From a virus, in IMG/VR virus record IMGVR_UViG_3300005528_000186, positions 1 to 24,762 of that record: a stretch of DNA of 24,762 nucleotides; one strand, 5' to 3'. The notes below the pieces were generated by a model. It was given only the letters and a program-made list of their open reading frames with translations, made no database searches and was not told the DNA's origin. Positions 91 through 8,797 of this stretch are shown here, piece after piece. Every line of letters begins with the position of its first letter. Positions within the stretch are counted from its first letter, which is position 1. The position numbers and the translations under genes were made by a program.

Positions 91-378
91 CTACTTATTT
101 CCTTTCTGAAAATCTTTTAGCAGTCTTTTTCCTTTTGACTTATTGACAATGGTGTATTTGACGTAACGTTCACCGTATTTATCTACGGCATCCACGCTCT
201 TTATATTTGGCTGTCCGTACTTTTTATTGAACAACTGACGAAGATCGAATATACGCGCTCCTAATCGCGTAGTGTCGTATCTTTTAGCATATTCCAATGC
301 CGTTATACTTTTACCGTCAATCATTTCCTTTAATGCGGTTAGCATTAATTCGCGTTTACGTCCTGTTTTTGTTTTCAT
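91..378 (-). CDS. Helix-turn-helix domain protein (HTH_39-like)
   Basis: This 95-residue basic protein resembles small phage helix-turn-helix proteins of the HTH_39 type. Residues about 10-50 carry the pattern ITALEYAKRYDTTRLGARIFDLR, where a short helix, a turn and an 'ARI-DLR' recognition helix follow each other. The lysine-rich C-terminus (KSKGKRLLKDFQKGNK) would suit nucleic-acid binding. It follows the recombination genes and is preceded by the A-rich leader AAAACCAAAAC one base before its ATG. It could regulate replication or recombination genes, or bind DNA as an accessory factor. The family call rests on motif recognition; the role is unknown. Confidence 0.6.
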   Translation of the reverse strand: MKTKTGRKRELMLTALKEMIDGKSITALEYAKRYDTTRLGARIFDLRQLFNKKYGQPNIKSVDAVDKYGERYVKYTIVNKSKGKRLLKDFQKGNK

Positions 379-388
379 GGTTTTGGTT

Positions 389-652
389 TTAATTATTGGT
401 TAGTAATTCGATTGCTTCGTCTGATGTTCGTACCACGTACACGGGAGCGCAGTTGACTTGTTGAAATCGCTCCTGACCTTCGCGTAGTTTGCCTGTTTTG
501 GTTTTTACCTCGATCACAAACCACTTACCGCGATAAGACACAAGCAGGTCGGGAATGTCACGTCCGTTGATCTTGTTAACGGTCGCACCAATGGCTTCCA
601 TCGCCTTGACAATTTCGGCTTCATTCCCGTCCCGCTTGTATTTGTACTTCAT
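389..652 (-). CDS. VRR-NUC / Holliday-junction-resolvase-like small nuclease
   Basis: An 87-residue protein with a compact PD-(D/E)xK nuclease layout: an N-terminal helix with a Glu (E11), GRDIPDLLV with Asp35, the FVIEVKTKTG strand with Glu48 and Lys50, and a Gln-containing helix (EGQERFQQ, residues 58-65). This is typical of stand-alone VRR-NUC domains in phages, which cut branched or structured DNA. Its start overlaps the stop of the preceding gene as TAATG, so translation is probably coupled. Next to a YqaJ exonuclease and a RecT-like protein it most likely takes part in phage recombination or junction resolution. The substrate is inferred. Confidence 0.75.
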   Translation of the reverse strand: MKYKYKRDGNEAEIVKAMEAIGATVNKINGRDIPDLLVSYRGKWFVIEVKTKTGKLREGQERFQQVNCAPVYVVRTSDEAIELLTNN

Positions 653-901: not shown

Positions 902-1561
902 TTATGGGTTAATTACAAACTTAGTGATTTTCAACTTTTCTTTCAACTCCTGCAACTCCGATTCCGCTTTACGGATGGCTTCTTTAGCGACGTCAATATC
1001 ATTTGCATCAACGATGAAAGATAGGTAATACAAGCCACATTCATCATCTACACGTGGATCGAATGAGACAAACATTCCACGATCAATGCCGTGAACGATG
1101 CAACCTGCGACGATCTGCCAGTAATACTTCGGCATTTCCTTCTTTAAGTCCTCGACGCTTTCCATCAGGCAATAACGTAGGTGTGTTGTTGTCTTAGGAC
1201 ATTTGACCTCAAAAATACATGGTTCACCTGCATACGTACCAACACGATCACACGTTGCGCCAAATGTAGGCATTTCGTCCCATTGCTGAAAATAGCTGCT
1301 ATCTTCGAGCGTGACCGTAGGCACTAACTTTTCAAGCCATGTAAATGCACGGGATTCGTTCTCTACACCGTGTGCAATGTCAGCACTCTCGTAGAAGTCC
1401 TCCTGACTTTCGCCAGTCAATCGCTCCGCTAACTTCTGCATCACATACGGACGTGGTCGCTTTTTAGGTGTGCAAATCAGGTCGTACAAATTACTTGCAG
1501 TCCATTTGCCTACACGCGCCTGATGCCATTCAAACGAATTTGATTCTATTCTTGTGTCCAT
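902..1561 (-). CDS. YqaJ-family (lambda-exonuclease-like) recombinase exonuclease
   Basis: This 219-residue protein is a phage 5'-3' double-strand DNA exonuclease of the YqaJ / lambda Exo type. Visible motifs, in order: EWHQARVGKWTAS near the N-terminus (residues 11-23), HGVENESRA (64-72, with Glu67), Asp105 in GATCD, the catalytic strand FEVKCPK with Glu118 and Lys120, and YYWQI near 147, the conserved Gln helix. Length is normal for the family. It overlaps the end of the RecT-like gene by 16 bases. Such exonuclease plus annealase pairs carry out phage homologous recombination: the exonuclease exposes single strands for the partner to anneal. Confidence 0.85.
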   Translation of the reverse strand: MDTRIESNSFEWHQARVGKWTASNLYDLICTPKKRPRPYVMQKLAERLTGESQEDFYESADIAHGVENESRAFTWLEKLVPTVTLEDSSYFQQWDEMPTFGATCDRVGTYAGEPCIFEVKCPKTTTHLRYCLMESVEDLKKEMPKYYWQIVAGCIVHGIDRGMFVSFDPRVDDECGLYYLSFIVDANDIDVAKEAIRKAESELQELKEKLKITKFVINP

Positions 1562-2265
1562 CGTGTGTTCTGTTTTAATGGTTGTGATTGTACGTCGATT
1601 ACTTCCTCGTAAGTGTGGATGCCCATGCTGATTTCAGGTGCAAACTGTCGCACAAAGAACGCTGCTGCTCGGTAGCGTAACATTAGCTGTGGCATTGTTT
1701 TCCACTTGCTACCTGCCTTCGTTGCCCATCCCTCATCCGTTGCCATCTTAACGCTCACCCAGATTCCGTGCTTAATTTCGCCAGTGCGCTTGTCTTCTGC
1801 ATACGCTCTGCATGAACCACCGTCCTTGTCCGATTCCTCGTAGCCAATAGTACCCCATGCGCTCGATGCGTTAAGCGTTGCAATCAGGAAATTGCTTGAC
1901 CATGCAGGTTTGCCGTGAACGATGTAAAGATTCTGCATGACCATTAGCGGCGACGCTCCGATACGTGATGCTGTTTCGATTGCAATGATGCAGTCTGCGA
2001 TGTTGCCCTGATAAGTCTTAGGCACTAACTGTGATGCTGCAAGTACCTTTGCCTGACGTTGAGCCAGTTCAAAAGATTCTGCATTGGTAAACACACTCAC
2101 CGCTTGGTTTACTTGACGCGGTTGGATAGCAACAGGTTCGTCAATTACAATAGGCACTTCGGCTGTTGGTTGCTCGGTAGGTTGCTCTTGCACCTCCGTT
2201 TGTTGATCGAAGTCAATCGGGTATTCGATGCCGTCAACGATTTTTGGTTCTGTTTTTTGTTTCAT
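1546..2265 (-). CDS. RecT-like single-strand annealing protein (probable)
   Basis: A 239-residue protein with a disordered, Gln/Pro/Glu-rich N-terminal tail (to about residue 55) and a conserved core. The core reads ...CIIAIETASRIGASPLMVMQNLYIVHGKPAW..., then RYRAAAFFVRQFAPEISMGIHTYEEV near the C-terminus. The pattern of an 'A-x-x-G-x-x-P' helix followed by 'Y-I-V-x-G-K-P-x-W' strands is what I associate with divergent phage RecT annealases. Being directly upstream of, and overlapping, a YqaJ exonuclease strongly supports this. A promoter-like TACATTTG inside a palindrome lies just before the gene. Alternative: a conserved phage protein of unknown function. Confidence 0.65.
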   Translation of the reverse strand: MKQKTEPKIVDGIEYPIDFDQQTEVQEQPTEQPTAEVPIVIDEPVAIQPRQVNQAVSVFTNAESFELAQRQAKVLAASQLVPKTYQGNIADCIIAIETASRIGASPLMVMQNLYIVHGKPAWSSNFLIATLNASSAWGTIGYEESDKDGGSCRAYAEDKRTGEIKHGIWVSVKMATDEGWATKAGSKWKTMPQLMLRYRAAAFFVRQFAPEISMGIHTYEEVIDVQSQPLKQNTRWTQE

Positions 2266-2281: not shown

Positions 2282-2298
2282 TTTACACAAATGTAAAT
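2282..2298 (-). promoter_or_regulatory. Palindrome (operator-like) over a -7-type box before the recT-like gene
   Basis: On the minus strand the sequence reads ATTTACATTTGTGTAAAT, with 7-base inverted arms around a TTTG centre. Inside it, TACATTTG (2295-2288) fits the Bacteroidota -7 box TAnnTTTG. No TTG sits 19-20 bases upstream, so promoter strength is doubtful. It shares 14 of 15 central bases with the palindrome at 3839-3852. This looks like a regulator binding site that would cover the -7 box of a recT-gene promoter. Confidence 0.55.
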
Positions 2299-2303
2299 AA
2301 AAT

Positions 2304-2474
2304 TTATATAAGTTGGTTGTCCTGCAAAGATTTTTTTTGTGCGTCAGTCAAATATCGTTCGCCGCGCAATATCCTGTAAAGATGCGGACGGCTGCAACCG
2401 ATTAACTTTGCCACGTGGGATTTACTAATACCTAATAATTTGATCTTGCGGTTTAATTTATCTATTGACTTCAT
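2304..2474 (-). CDS. 56-residue Cro/XRE-type helix-turn-helix regulator
   Basis: A short gene starting at the ATG that overlaps the previous stop as ATGA and ending in TAA at 2304. The protein begins MKSIDKLNRKIKLLGI and contains a clean helix-turn-helix: SKSHVAKLIG as positioning helix, CSR as turn, PHLYRILRGE as recognition helix, then a short basic tail. This fits minimal Cro/XRE-like phage regulators, which usually bind palindromes as dimers. Its gene ends 6 bases before the palindrome at 2282-2298, and a near copy lies at the promoter of its own operon (3839-3852). Autoregulation plus control of the recombination genes is a reasonable inference; binding itself is not shown. Confidence 0.8.
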   Translation of the reverse strand: MKSIDKLNRKIKLLGISKSHVAKLIGCSRPHLYRILRGERYLTDAQKKSLQDNQLI

Positions 2475-2719
2475 AGGTTGTCAATTACTTCTGTTTCTAC
2501 ATAGTTGATCACATCCTGCTTCATAAAGTCTGCAAAGCGTTGGATAGCGTCCGTCAAATCTTTGTAGTCAATTACCGCATTAATGTCCGTTTGTTTCTCG
2601 TTGTGCCAGTCACCTGCTGTTTCGCTGACCGTTACGTGTACAGGCACATCAAATGCGATGCCTTCGGTGTCATCCATAAAGAAGTTGATGGTGACGTACT
2701 TTGTTAGTGATGATTTCAT
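2471..2719 (-). CDS. Hypothetical acidic protein
   Basis: I do not recognise this 82-residue protein. The first half is predicted beta (KYVTINFFMDDTEGIAFDVPVHVTVS), the second half helical (DLTDAIQRFADFMKQDVINYVETEV). It is acidic overall. It starts 2 bases after the previous stop and shares ATGA with the small helix-turn-helix gene downstream, so it belongs to the same transcription unit. Small acidic phage proteins in such early clusters are often host-takeover or anti-defence factors, but nothing in this sequence proves that. Confidence 0.6.
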   Translation of the reverse strand: MKSSLTKYVTINFFMDDTEGIAFDVPVHVTVSETAGDWHNEKQTDINAVIDYKDLTDAIQRFADFMKQDVINYVETEVIDNL

Positions 2720-2721
2720 AG

Positions 2722-2976
2722 TTATTCAGGTAAGGTTAAGTAAATAGATAGGTTTAACTCGTCATGCTGCAATTTTACCCAATTTTCATCAGTCAGGTAA
2801 AACGATGTGTCAAATGCTGTCTCGCATTGCTTACGGACTTGCTTACTGTAATGTCCTTGCAGTCGGATTCTACCGTGTGATGTCTCGATAGAGTAGAATA
2901 ATTCCAAAGATATTTTGGCATTAATGTCCGTTAAGATTTGCAGCAATTCTGCCTGTGTTTTGGTTTCTGTTGTCAT
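2722..2976 (-). CDS. Hypothetical protein
   Basis: I do not recognise this 84-residue protein. The N-terminal third is helical (ETKTQAELLQILTDINAKISLELFYS), followed by strand-like stretches such as GRIRLQGHYSKQV and LNLSIYLTLPE. No metal-binding or membrane motif is seen. An AAACCAAAAT leader precedes the ATG, a variant of the motif found before neighbouring genes. It is followed 2 bases later by the next gene of the same unit. Confidence 0.6.
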   Translation of the reverse strand: MTTETKTQAELLQILTDINAKISLELFYSIETSHGRIRLQGHYSKQVRKQCETAFDTSFYLTDENWVKLQHDELNLSIYLTLPE

Positions 2977-3000
2977 GTTTATTTTGGTTTATTGGTTTAC

Positions 3001-3294
3001 TTATTCATGATCCACCCATTCATCAGCCTTGAGTGGTTCGGCTTGTCCTGTCGTATCGTTGAGCCATAAGGCACGGCACAACTTTACCGCTGCTTCGTAG
3101 CTGACACGCTTTTTAACGTTGCGTTTGATGCACTCGTCGCAGTTCTTAATCGCCTCCGTGCTATCGTTGACAAAGATGGTTGGAGCGTGCATATCGCGTG
3201 GATGACGCTCGTCATATTGGTTACACGCTTTCGCGAACATTATTGCTATAATTAGCAGGAAGATCGGCACGGCTATAAATTGTTTCCAGTTCAT
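3001..3294 (-). CDS. Small exported or membrane-anchored protein with Cys pairs
   Basis: A 97-residue protein with an N-terminal hydrophobic segment (residues about 5-23, FIAVPIFLLIIAIMF) followed by AKAC, which fits a signal peptidase I site (A-x-A) or a plain membrane anchor. The lipobox rule is not met because Lys precedes the final Ala. The rest is hydrophilic, with Cys at about 24, 52, 55 and 73, including CDEC, so disulfides or metal binding outside the cytoplasm are possible. It belongs to the early accessory cluster and has the AAAACCAAAAC leader three bases before its ATG. A superinfection-exclusion or envelope role is conceivable but unproven. Confidence 0.6.
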   Translation of the reverse strand: MNWKQFIAVPIFLLIIAIMFAKACNQYDERHPRDMHAPTIFVNDSTEAIKNCDECIKRNVKKRVSYEAAVKLCRALWLNDTTGQAEPLKADEWVDHE

Positions 3295-3306
3295 GATGTT
3301 TTGGTT

Positions 3307-3510
3307 TTAGTTGGTTGTTTTAGTTAGTCCTAATTCTGAACAGGCATAGTTAATGTGTTTTGATGTCGTTACGCTCCAATATCCCAATACTTTAGCGGTC
3401 TTGATTTCGTAGTCAATTTTAGCTACATTGGTTGAATAAGAGCGAATAAAATCGCCTTCGCTTGTTGTTACAATACATAGATTCTGTTTGTACTTTTTAA
3501 ATGTTCTCAT
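3307..3510 (-). CDS. Hypothetical small basic protein
   Basis: I do not recognise this 67-residue basic protein (MRTFKKYKQNLCIVTTSEGDF...). It is probably a small alpha/beta fold: a strand pair, then a helix near the C-terminus (HINYACSELGL). The start is supported by the AAAACCAAAAC leader three bases upstream. It sits 12 bases before the membrane protein gene in the same operon. Confidence 0.55.
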   Translation of the reverse strand: MRTFKKYKQNLCIVTTSEGDFIRSYSTNVAKIDYEIKTAKVLGYWSVTTSKHINYACSELGLTKTTN

Positions 3511-3565
3511 GTTGTTTTGGTTTTTAAGGTTATGCAGTTGGTCGGATGCTGCTCCCCGTTTGGTG

Positions 3566-3778
3566 TTAGTTAATTACTTGTACGTCTATTACTTTTCCAA
3601 ATGTATTTGGGTACTTCATATTCCAGATCTGTTGAGCCCATGTCTTAAGAAGGTACGGATATTCACGCGCCTGTTGAGCTTTATTACTGTTAAGTTCAAC
3701 TACTAATGTTGAAGGAATAGACATTACAGAATAATTTTCTGTTACTTCGTTGTGGCTGATGGTGATTTGGATTTTCAT
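3566..3778 (-). CDS. Hypothetical protein, first gene of the accessory operon
   Basis: I do not recognise this 70-residue protein. An N-terminal beta stretch (MKIQITISHNEVTENYSVMSIPSTLVVEL) is followed by an Ala/Gln-rich helix and a C-terminal strand (GKVIDVQVIN). It is the first gene after the promoter-like sequence at 3817-3846 and has an AAAACCAAAAAC leader just before its ATG. A longer frame beginning near 3881 in another phase overlaps it but lacks its leader and protein-like composition. Confidence 0.55.
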   Translation of the reverse strand: MKIQITISHNEVTENYSVMSIPSTLVVELNSNKAQQAREYPYLLKTWAQQIWNMKYPNTFGKVIDVQVIN

Positions 3779-3816
3779 AGTTTTTGGTTTTAGTTGTTTG
3801 TTTTAATTTGATAGGA

Positions 3817-3846
3817 CAAATATACAGCGACATTTTGATTACACAA
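3817..3846 (-). promoter_or_regulatory. Bacteroidota-type promoter of the accessory/recombination operon
   Basis: Read on the minus strand: TTG at 3846-3844, a 19-base spacer, then TATATTTG at 3824-3817. This matches the known Bacteroidota primary-sigma pattern (TTTG/TTG at -33, TAnnTTTG at -7, 19-20 bases apart). Transcription would start near 3811, giving a leader of about 30 bases before the ATG at 3778. A palindrome overlaps the -33 element. Confidence 0.7.
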
Positions 3847-3852
3847 GTGTAA
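3839..3852 (-). promoter_or_regulatory. Palindromic operator candidate overlapping the -33 box
   Basis: The sequence TTACACAAGTGTAA (plus strand) has perfect 6-base arms (TTACAC/GTGTAA) around two central bases. It covers the -33 TTG of the promoter, so a bound protein would block RNA polymerase. The minus-strand core TTTACA(C/T)TTGTGTAA is shared with the site at 2282-2298. The likely binder is the 56-residue helix-turn-helix protein encoded at the end of the five-gene cluster that follows. Confidence 0.6.
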
Positions 3853-3856
3853 ACGG

Positions 3857-7039: not shown

Positions 7040-8797
7040 TTAAGATCGTTTGAAGGTTAATACAGCGCGATAAATTACACCAACTGGATTCGTTGCCCAA
7101 ACTGGATTTGTTACCCTTAAAGTAAAAAAGTCAGAAGCACCTATTGCAATGTTCAGTCCCGTTATTGTTGTATTGGTAGTAACTGTTGCGCTTCCTCCAT
7201 TTGCAGCGGTTGTGCCTATTGAAGTTGTTGTGTTTTGAGTGGTGTTGCGCAATTCAAATGTAACAAGCTCACCAGTTCCCGCTGTTGTGTTACCATAAGT
7301 CATAATTGTGGCTGCTACAATAGTAACTGCATAGCCAAAATTAAAATCATTATTCGTGTCAGTATTTCCCGCTGTTGGTGATATACCAGAATTTAAGAAA
7401 TGCCAAACTGAACTATCCGCTGCAGGTGCTGCACCACCATGTAAACAAAGGAATGTAAAATATGCATCGTCTAATGTTATCTTACTATTTAGCTGCGTCT
7501 GAATAGCTGATGTAACGCCTTTCACATATGACAACTCTGTAAGGCTTGGATAAGTCGCAGTTGTCAAACTTGTGATCGTGCTACCAGTCGAGTTAAATGC
7601 AGCTATCTCGTTATTTGTTCCCGTACCTGTTACGGGATTTGTAAGCGTTGCCTGTTTACCGTTTAGCTGTGTTTGTATAGCTGATGTCGTACCCTTAACG
7701 TAAGACAATTCTGTCAAACTTGGATATGTCGTAGTATTCAACGATCCAACCGTTCCAGATGTTGCCCAGTACGTTATCTGATTAGCCGTTCCCGTACCTG
7801 TTACTGCATTTGGTAGAATTGTGTTAATGCTTTTAGCCGACCACAACTGTGACGATGAATTGTAAGCCAAAAGATCATTATTCACAGGTGGAACTGTAAT
7901 CAAATCCACATTGTGAATTTCATCAAGTTCGTAACCGTTTTGACAACGGACATAAATCTGCCCGTTACCCGCATTTGCCCTTTCAACTATTCCAACATAC
8001 ACCAAATGATCAGGAGCGTAAGGCTTGACGTTTGTCAAACCTCCAAATGTCGATGCACTAAGATAAAGCGTGTCACCTGCCGAGTATGCAGCCGTGTTAA
8101 CGCCCACTATTGCACCCTGAATAATAATATACCCTTCCGCACCTATTCCAATCGTAGAATCGTAAACTATCCCGATTGTTTTGGATGATGTGGCGTCCGC
8201 GTCTGCCCGTGCTAATTTAACGGACATCTTGTTGCCACTTGATCCAAAAGCGTACACTACCTGCCCTTTGGTAATTACAGAACCTTCCGCATTGTGAACG
8301 TATGCTAACAGATGCGCACTTGTCAATCCTATCGCTTGGAAATTAGTACCGTCATAAACGATTATAATTTCCTGATTCGCTTTGATGTCACCTGATTCAA
8401 GTGGAACGATGCTATTCTTGTAAATATTAACCGCACCGAGTGAGTTAATATTGATAGTTGATCCGTTATCGTTGACACTGGTAAATTTAATCGCGTAAAC
8501 ATCGCCAGTTGTATAGGCTGAAACGCCTGAAATGGTTGTCGTATAAACACCTGCGGAAACCTGCGTAGCTGTTCCATGCAACAAACCACTTGCACCACCC
8601 GTGCCGATAGGCATATAGTCCAAATTAGACCATGTGTCCGTGCCGTTAGCTATTTTGAACTTACGCTGATCTGTAGCACCGTAATACTGATCGGATGTTA
8701 CCAGTATTCGCTTTGCAGAATAGACCGTCGAATCCGCTGCCCATTGCGCTGCGGTCTTAACGACTATCTGACTATCTATGTTGACTGTTACTGCCAT
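7040..8797 (-). CDS. Tail fibre / receptor-binding-type protein with internal repeats
   Basis: A 585-residue Gly/Thr/Ser-rich beta protein. The N-terminus (MAVTVNIDSQIVVKTAAQWAADSTVY) resembles fibre attachment regions in other phages. Residues 329-381 and 387-439 are two imperfect copies of one unit, each ending YPSLTELSYVKG-TSAIQTQLN-K, a repeat known from phage fibre and collar proteins. After it comes a distinct C-terminal domain (about 450-585) that could bind the receptor. It overlaps the upstream gene by 10 bases. It most likely forms a host-contacting trimeric fibre, but no receptor can be read from the sequence. Confidence 0.75.
   Translation of the reverse strand: MAVTVNIDSQIVVKTAAQWAADSTVYSAKRILVTSDQYYGATDQRKFKIANGTDTWSNLDYMPIGTGGASGLLHGTATQVSAGVYTTTISGVSAYTTGDVYAIKFTSVNDNGSTININSLGAVNIYKNSIVPLESGDIKANQEIIIVYDGTNFQAIGLTSAHLLAYVHNAEGSVITKGQVVYAFGSSGNKMSVKLARADADATSSKTIGIVYDSTIGIGAEGYIIIQGAIVGVNTAAYSAGDTLYLSASTFGGLTNVKPYAPDHLVYVGIVERANAGNGQIYVRCQNGYELDEIHNVDLITVPPVNNDLLAYNSSSQLWSAKSINTILPNAVTGTGTANQITYWATSGTVGSLNTTTYPSLTELSYVKGTTSAIQTQLNGKQATLTNPVTGTGTNNEIAAFNSTGSTITSLTTATYPSLTELSYVKGVTSAIQTQLNSKITLDDAYFTFLCLHGGAAPAADSSVWHFLNSGISPTAGNTDTNNDFNFGYAVTIVAATIMTYGNTTAGTGELVTFELRNTTQNTTTSIGTTAANGGSATVTTNTTITGLNIAIGASDFFTLRVTNPVWATNPVGVIYRAVLTFKRS

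Follow-up and report, generated by a model that had tools for sequence, protein, structure and literature searches.

Cro of the lambdoid phages represses more than one early promoter, and the operators of phage 434 are 14 bp long. A second group of small phage regulators, the Aca repressors, comprises single-HTH proteins of ~60-65 amino acids, with an inverted repeat that in every case falls inside the core promoter (PMC9410906); one of them, Aca10, forms a small dimer with a four-helix fold (PMC9410881). This anatomy, which matches the layout described here, is backed by experiment (PMC9410906, PMC9410881).

The locus that we analysed resembles the Aca systems, especially Aca1 and Aca10, in that a small single-HTH protein (56 amino acids) is encoded last in an operon of small variable genes. 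The intergenic gaps of this accessory operon (55, 12, 24, 2 and -4 bases) do not exceed the 55 bases that PMC9410906 allows within an operon, a conserved inverted repeat lies inside the operon's core promoter and the four-helix fold of Aca10 is also predicted for the regulator. However, a sequence search linked the regulator to none of the Aca structures in the PDB, the cargo is not known as anti-CRISPR and the phage has a second matching operator at the adjoining recT promoter. Likenesses to Cro of 434 and lambda include a minimal HTH that may be of the Cro/C1 type (434 Cro is matched by Foldseek at a probability of 0.82, although with a non-significant E), operators of 14 bp as in 434 and a proposed action on more than one early promoter. 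Unlike in the lambdoid phages, no opposing CI and no integrase were detected in complete relatives, there is no divergent promoter, and the regulator gene stands at the end of its operon. Also comparable are HigA-type antitoxins and the C-proteins that accompany restriction-modification systems, which are small XRE HTH autorepressors; C.BclI, C.AhdI and HigA are Foldseek neighbours of the regulator, but no restriction-modification or toxin gene was recognised in the accessory operon. The kind of circuit is already known from Aca and Cro; the new elements are the phage lineage and the presence of a further operator at the promoter of the recombination genes. The analysis below establishes where the sites lie, how well they are conserved, where the promoters are, how the genes are ordered and that protein and operator change jointly.

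The phage and its relatives

The window, which is the whole stretch of 24,762 bases that was analysed, is an entire virus record. Its main genes are all on the minus strand, with the terminase large subunit encoded at the right end and the recombination genes at the left, and its promoters have the Bacteroidota form, TAnnTTTG. The source is an uncultured Bacteroidota phage. Our search found no isolate phage that resembles the window and none with a capsid resembling its capsid, and a host search by capsid among genomes gave no match.

Relatives were taken from IMG/VR and form two groups: a near clade (L002-L010; recT 97-100%) and a sister clade (L011-L017 and L121-L130; recT 75-77%, capsid 90-91%). 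Each group includes a complete genome. G004, from the near clade, has 36,036 bases and is circular by a 22-base end overlap that is consistent with the gene order of its relatives; G012, from the sister clade, has 35,823 bases and is circular by a 133-base end overlap (99%). Elsewhere in the window, a 585-aa gene (7040-8797) contains an internal duplication (~7488-7567 and ~7662-7741, ~77% identical) with the repeated PSLTELSYVKG...AIQTQLN.

Table 1 Features of the accessory and recombination operons in the window
Feature	Position	Strand	Details
Operator 1 (O_acc), candidate	3838-3853	-	TTTACACTTGTGTAAT; 14-bp core 3839-3852, perfect 6-bp arms
-33 TTG, accessory promoter	3844-3846	-	Within operator 1
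-7 box TATATTTG, accessory promoter	3817-3824	-	Predicted start ~3812
Promoter-proximal variable slot	3307-3778	-	Two small ORFs, 70 and 67 aa; unrelated genes instead in relatives
Three small genes, 97, 84 and 82 aa	2471-3294	-	Constant across the near clade; last overlaps regulator start by 4 bases
56-aa Cro/XRE-like HTH regulator	2304-2474	-	Last gene of accessory operon; HTH_3-like domain
Operator 2 (O_recT), candidate	2282-2297	-	TTTACATTTGTGTAAA; contains -7 box, extends to predicted start
-7 box TACATTTG, recT promoter	2288-2295	-	Predicted start ~2283
RecT-like single-strand annealing protein	1546-2265	-	First recombination-operon gene; PHROG 561, E 2.7e-64
YqaJ-type exonuclease	902-1561	-	Second recombination-operon gene; Pfam PF09588, 1.5e-11

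Matching palindromes at two promoters

Compared on the coding strand, the two palindromes (sites 1 and 2) agree at 14 of 15 bases, and no third copy with three or fewer mismatches occurs elsewhere in the window. A sequence-only reading had placed them at 3839-3852 and 2282-2298, with the first covering the -33 box of the accessory promoter and the second a -7-like sequence before the recT-like gene. Its coordinates and sequences proved correct (site 2 is given here as 2282-2297): the TTG lies inside site 1 and TACATTTG inside site 2. Of the 18 TAnnTTTG boxes on the coding strand of the window, only two are intergenic, and both are the promoters at the palindromes. We predicted transcript starts from the position of the promoter box measured in Flavobacterium (-12 to -5; PMC9723704); the resulting starts in Table 1 are close to the 3811 and 2281 proposed earlier. 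Relative to them, site 1, with perfect arms, spans ~-40 to -27 and site 2, with imperfect arms, ~-13 to +1.

The accessory promoter has a spacer of 19 bp between its -33 TTG and TATATTTG, which is kept in the window, G004 and L010. There is no TTG at the expected -33 position of the recT promoter, which on sequence is therefore predicted to be weaker. This promoter might need help, and operator 1 extends to ~-40, near activator territory, so the 56-aa protein could be imagined to activate one or both promoters in a positive early loop. We consider such a loop very improbable: the accessory promoter should need no activator because both of its boxes are present at 19 bp, and a dimer bound at site 2, or at the accessory site of the sister clade (between -28 and -13), should exclude polymerase. 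G004 also has a third strong promoter, TTG-18-TATATTTG, located after the HTH_39 gene and before the replication genes (34068-34096; L091:16032-16060), without a palindrome.

Both sites, in the same orientation and with no other copies, are found in the six relatives that span both places (G001, G002, G004, G005, G007 and G009), among them the circularly complete 36-kb G004; in three shorter fragments (G003, G006 and G008), site 2 alone was found. Loss of the palindromes from relatives that retain the regulator had been named in advance as the observation that would count against the proposal, and they are kept in 6/6. None of the 14 core positions varies at either site among six sequences, compared with 35 of 96 flanking positions around site 1 and 17 of 74 around site 2. 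The sequence upstream of site 1 is heavily changed in L010, and the 16-bp palindrome there is still perfect. A scan of the viral collection for the operator plus -7 box pattern returned only these phages and one match beside a tRNA-like sequence on an unrelated contig (L102), which we take as chance.

Short AT-rich palindromes are common, and the window holds 25 with 5-bp arms. A palindrome pair of this kind appeared anywhere in the window in 12 of 200 whole-window shuffles and in only 10 of 5,000 shuffles of the 629 intergenic bases. It is scarcely credible that the sites have no regulatory role or are RNA hairpins or terminators, given that their cores are conserved relative to the flanks, that they are located in promoters and that a different palindrome replaces them in the sister clade. 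Moreover, site 1 probably acts as DNA because it lies upstream of the predicted transcript, and no Rfam match was found in the window.

A 56-aa regulator behind a variable slot

The regulator matches Pfam HTH_3 (PF01381) with 22.0 bits, just below the cut-off of 23 (E 1.7e-4). Its AlphaFold model has four helices at moderate confidence (pLDDT 73), and the Foldseek neighbours of the model are in the Cro/C1-type (XRE) class, but with E above 0.3. These results are compatible with the earlier description of a minimal Cro/XRE protein of 56 residues, the stop codon of which is 6 bases from site 2. The protein is 100% identical in nine other contigs; across ten sequences, its gene varies at 29 nucleotides, in each case synonymously, and no amino acid is changed. 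The adjoining genes for proteins of 82, 84 and 97 amino acids have 7, 16 and 6 variable residues, respectively. We found no real relatives of the regulator in 84,980 genomes or 50,697 phage records, and none at the more distant recT loci (L018-L081). No NCBIfam family scored above its cut-off, and no Aca chain was among the PDB matches up to E 10.

The first slot of the accessory operon encodes proteins of 70 and 67 aa in the window, 76 and 58 aa in G004 and 87 aa in L006, L008 and L010. In the sister clade, it encodes 65, 55 + 66, 51, 74 or 56 aa, and the first ATG of the slot is always 49-50 bases from the start of the operator. A membrane-like gene of 93/97 aa comes after the slot, and the regulator is at the operon end. 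Searches of Pfam, PHROGs and NCBIfam gave nothing informative for the genes of the window operon. In G012, a VRR_NUC-like gene (L096:10500-10793), related to window positions 389-652, has been relocated, in inverted orientation, to a place immediately before the accessory promoter.

Protein and operator differ together in a sister clade

Every sister genome examined encodes another 56-aa HTH protein (MTYSQRVTQRQKALGVSSTAIARNLNISRKTLYERF...) just upstream of recT, at the same locus. The two regulators are 30% identical over the HTH (33 residues), and the same helices are predicted for both (3-14, 18-25, 29-36/38 and 41/44-53), at moderate confidence (pLDDT 73 and 69). Because an identity of 30% over 33 residues is weak evidence of homology, the regulator of one clade may be a replacement rather than a homologue.

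The accessory promoter of the sister clade has a different palindrome, GTAACA-N4-TGTTAC, which fills the spacer from TTG to TAnCTTTG. Over the -7 box of the sister recT promoter is GTAACA-N4-TGTATC, a two-mismatch copy that matches the accessory operator at 10/12 arm positions and overlaps both the regulator stop codon and the -7 box. For the accessory promoter, 6/6 arm positions agree, except in L014 with 5/6; for recT, 4/6 agree. In G012, these two sites are among only three places genome-wide with two or fewer mismatches. A third GTAACA-like match in some sister genomes (GAAAAAACATTGTTAC) is inside a coding gene and was taken as chance. Window-type and sister-type operators have ACA-N4-TGT in common. 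The comparison of sequences indicates that the 56-aa protein and the operator changed together, and that the two promoters carrying an operator remained the same.

These comparisons also bear on the importance of the recT site. The regulator might repress its own accessory promoter only, with the recT copy being weak, vestigial or a result of promoter and stop-codon constraint, and having little effect. Consistent with this, symmetry is lower at site 2 than at site 1 in each clade, a -33 TTG is missing from the recT promoter and the sister site, at just 10/12, overlaps a stop codon and a -7 box that are constrained anyway. Yet the recT core in the near clade is invariant at 14/14 positions, including bases outside the -7 box, and is shared with site 1 to 14/15 bases; we consider a role at the accessory promoter alone to be unlikely.

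A further question is which protein reads the palindromes. These phages encode other DNA-binding proteins, and a host or other phage reader is possible in principle because all proteins differ between the clades. Candidates include HTH_39, a second small HTH protein of these phages that is encoded in the recT operon, a protein with a DnaA C-terminal domain and a host regulator. HTH_39 is divergent in the window and L002, whereas in G004, L006, L008, L009 and L010 it is 71-72% identical to that of the sister clade. As both HTH_39 types occur with the window-type operator, HTH_39 does not set the operator type, and we rejected it as the reader. The 56-aa protein was the only one observed to stay constant where the operator is constant and to differ where the operator differs, and in the viral-collection scan the combination of site and promoter was restricted to these phages. 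We therefore give another reader little chance; co-variation over two clades suggests that the 56-aa protein, which tracks the operator type, is the candidate reader.

Two observations concern these other DNA-binding proteins. The HTH_39 gene (window 91-378) exists in two divergent types within the near clade, ~35% identical, and its neighbours are ~90% alike or more; judged from these sequences, the difference is a local replacement. G004 encodes a protein of 167 aa with a DnaA C-terminal DNA-binding domain (L090:2420-2923; Pfam 6.8e-17) near a DnaB-like helicase.

Some unrelated mobile elements (L147:7213-8093, L150, L154 and L156) have GTAACA-N4-TGTTAC directly before TATCTTTG, driving a two-gene operon in which the second gene encodes a 115-aa HTH_3 protein; L157 has the promoter alone. 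In L147 and L156 a serine-recombinase-like gene is next, on the opposite strand. This appears to be an independent instance of the operator-promoter arrangement of the phages. In L159 (12757-12780), GTAACAAAATTGTTACTATCTTTG occurs before a 232-aa gene, and the ATGAGGGGGCAACTCAATAAA leader is common to L159 and L147.

A proposed early shut-off circuit

We consider it likely that the 56-aa protein is an Aca/Cro-like early autorepressor that controls the accessory and recT operons via both palindromes. After infection, host sigma-A polymerase would start transcription at two promoters, accessory (3844-3817) and recT (~2288). The accessory operon would deliver the products of the swappable small-gene slot and the three conserved small genes, and the regulator last. 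As the regulator accumulates, we infer that it would dimerize and bind both palindromes, the one that covers the -33 box upstream of its own operon and the matching one that covers the -7 box and start site at recT. Repression, rather than activation, would then shut off both promoters, so that an early burst of transcription is followed by closure of the cargo and recT operons. All of the sites are within core promoters, which fits the blocking of polymerase. With regard to timing, the accessory operon may close first and the shut-off of recT may be later or weaker, because site 1 has perfectly matching arms and site 2 does not, and the sister clade shows the same order.

The sequence-only reading had suggested that the regulator acts on its own operon and controls the accessory and recombination genes together. 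On sequence grounds this is well supported, because the sites are kept in 6/6 relatives and the sister clade, with its diverged regulator, has its own palindrome. The same reading spoke of a 'switch', a term that holds in the sense of an early-gene shut-off loop but not of a decision between lysis and lysogeny. As it had noted for the window, there is no visible integrase or large repressor, and none was found in relatives either, the two complete genomes included: tyrosine integrase (PF00589) and serine recombinase (PF00239) are absent from G004, G012 and G015, and the sole HTH_3 match in these three genomes is the regulator itself, in G004. PF01381 is a weak detector of diverged HTHs and misses the sister regulator too, so a very diverged second repressor may exist. 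We rejected a Cro-CI lysis/lysogeny switch; with no integrase or second repressor detected in the complete relatives, an early-gene shut-off loop is the more suitable description.

Implications

More tentatively, the 56-aa protein could represent a new Aca-like repressor family of Bacteroidota phages, one that marks a hypervariable anti-defence slot and that also times the shut-off of the recombination operon via a second, weaker operator. If this is true, the stretch behind operator 1 would be a route to undiscovered anti-defence genes. Genes have been found by position in this way before, using the early promoter motifs of archaeal viruses (PMC11065993) and using Aca, and if the slot holds anti-defence cargo, the operator and regulator could serve as positional bait for such genes. 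Regulation in uncultured Bacteroidota phages is poorly described, and the locus offers a compact, testable early-gene circuit, with natural operator variants across two clades.
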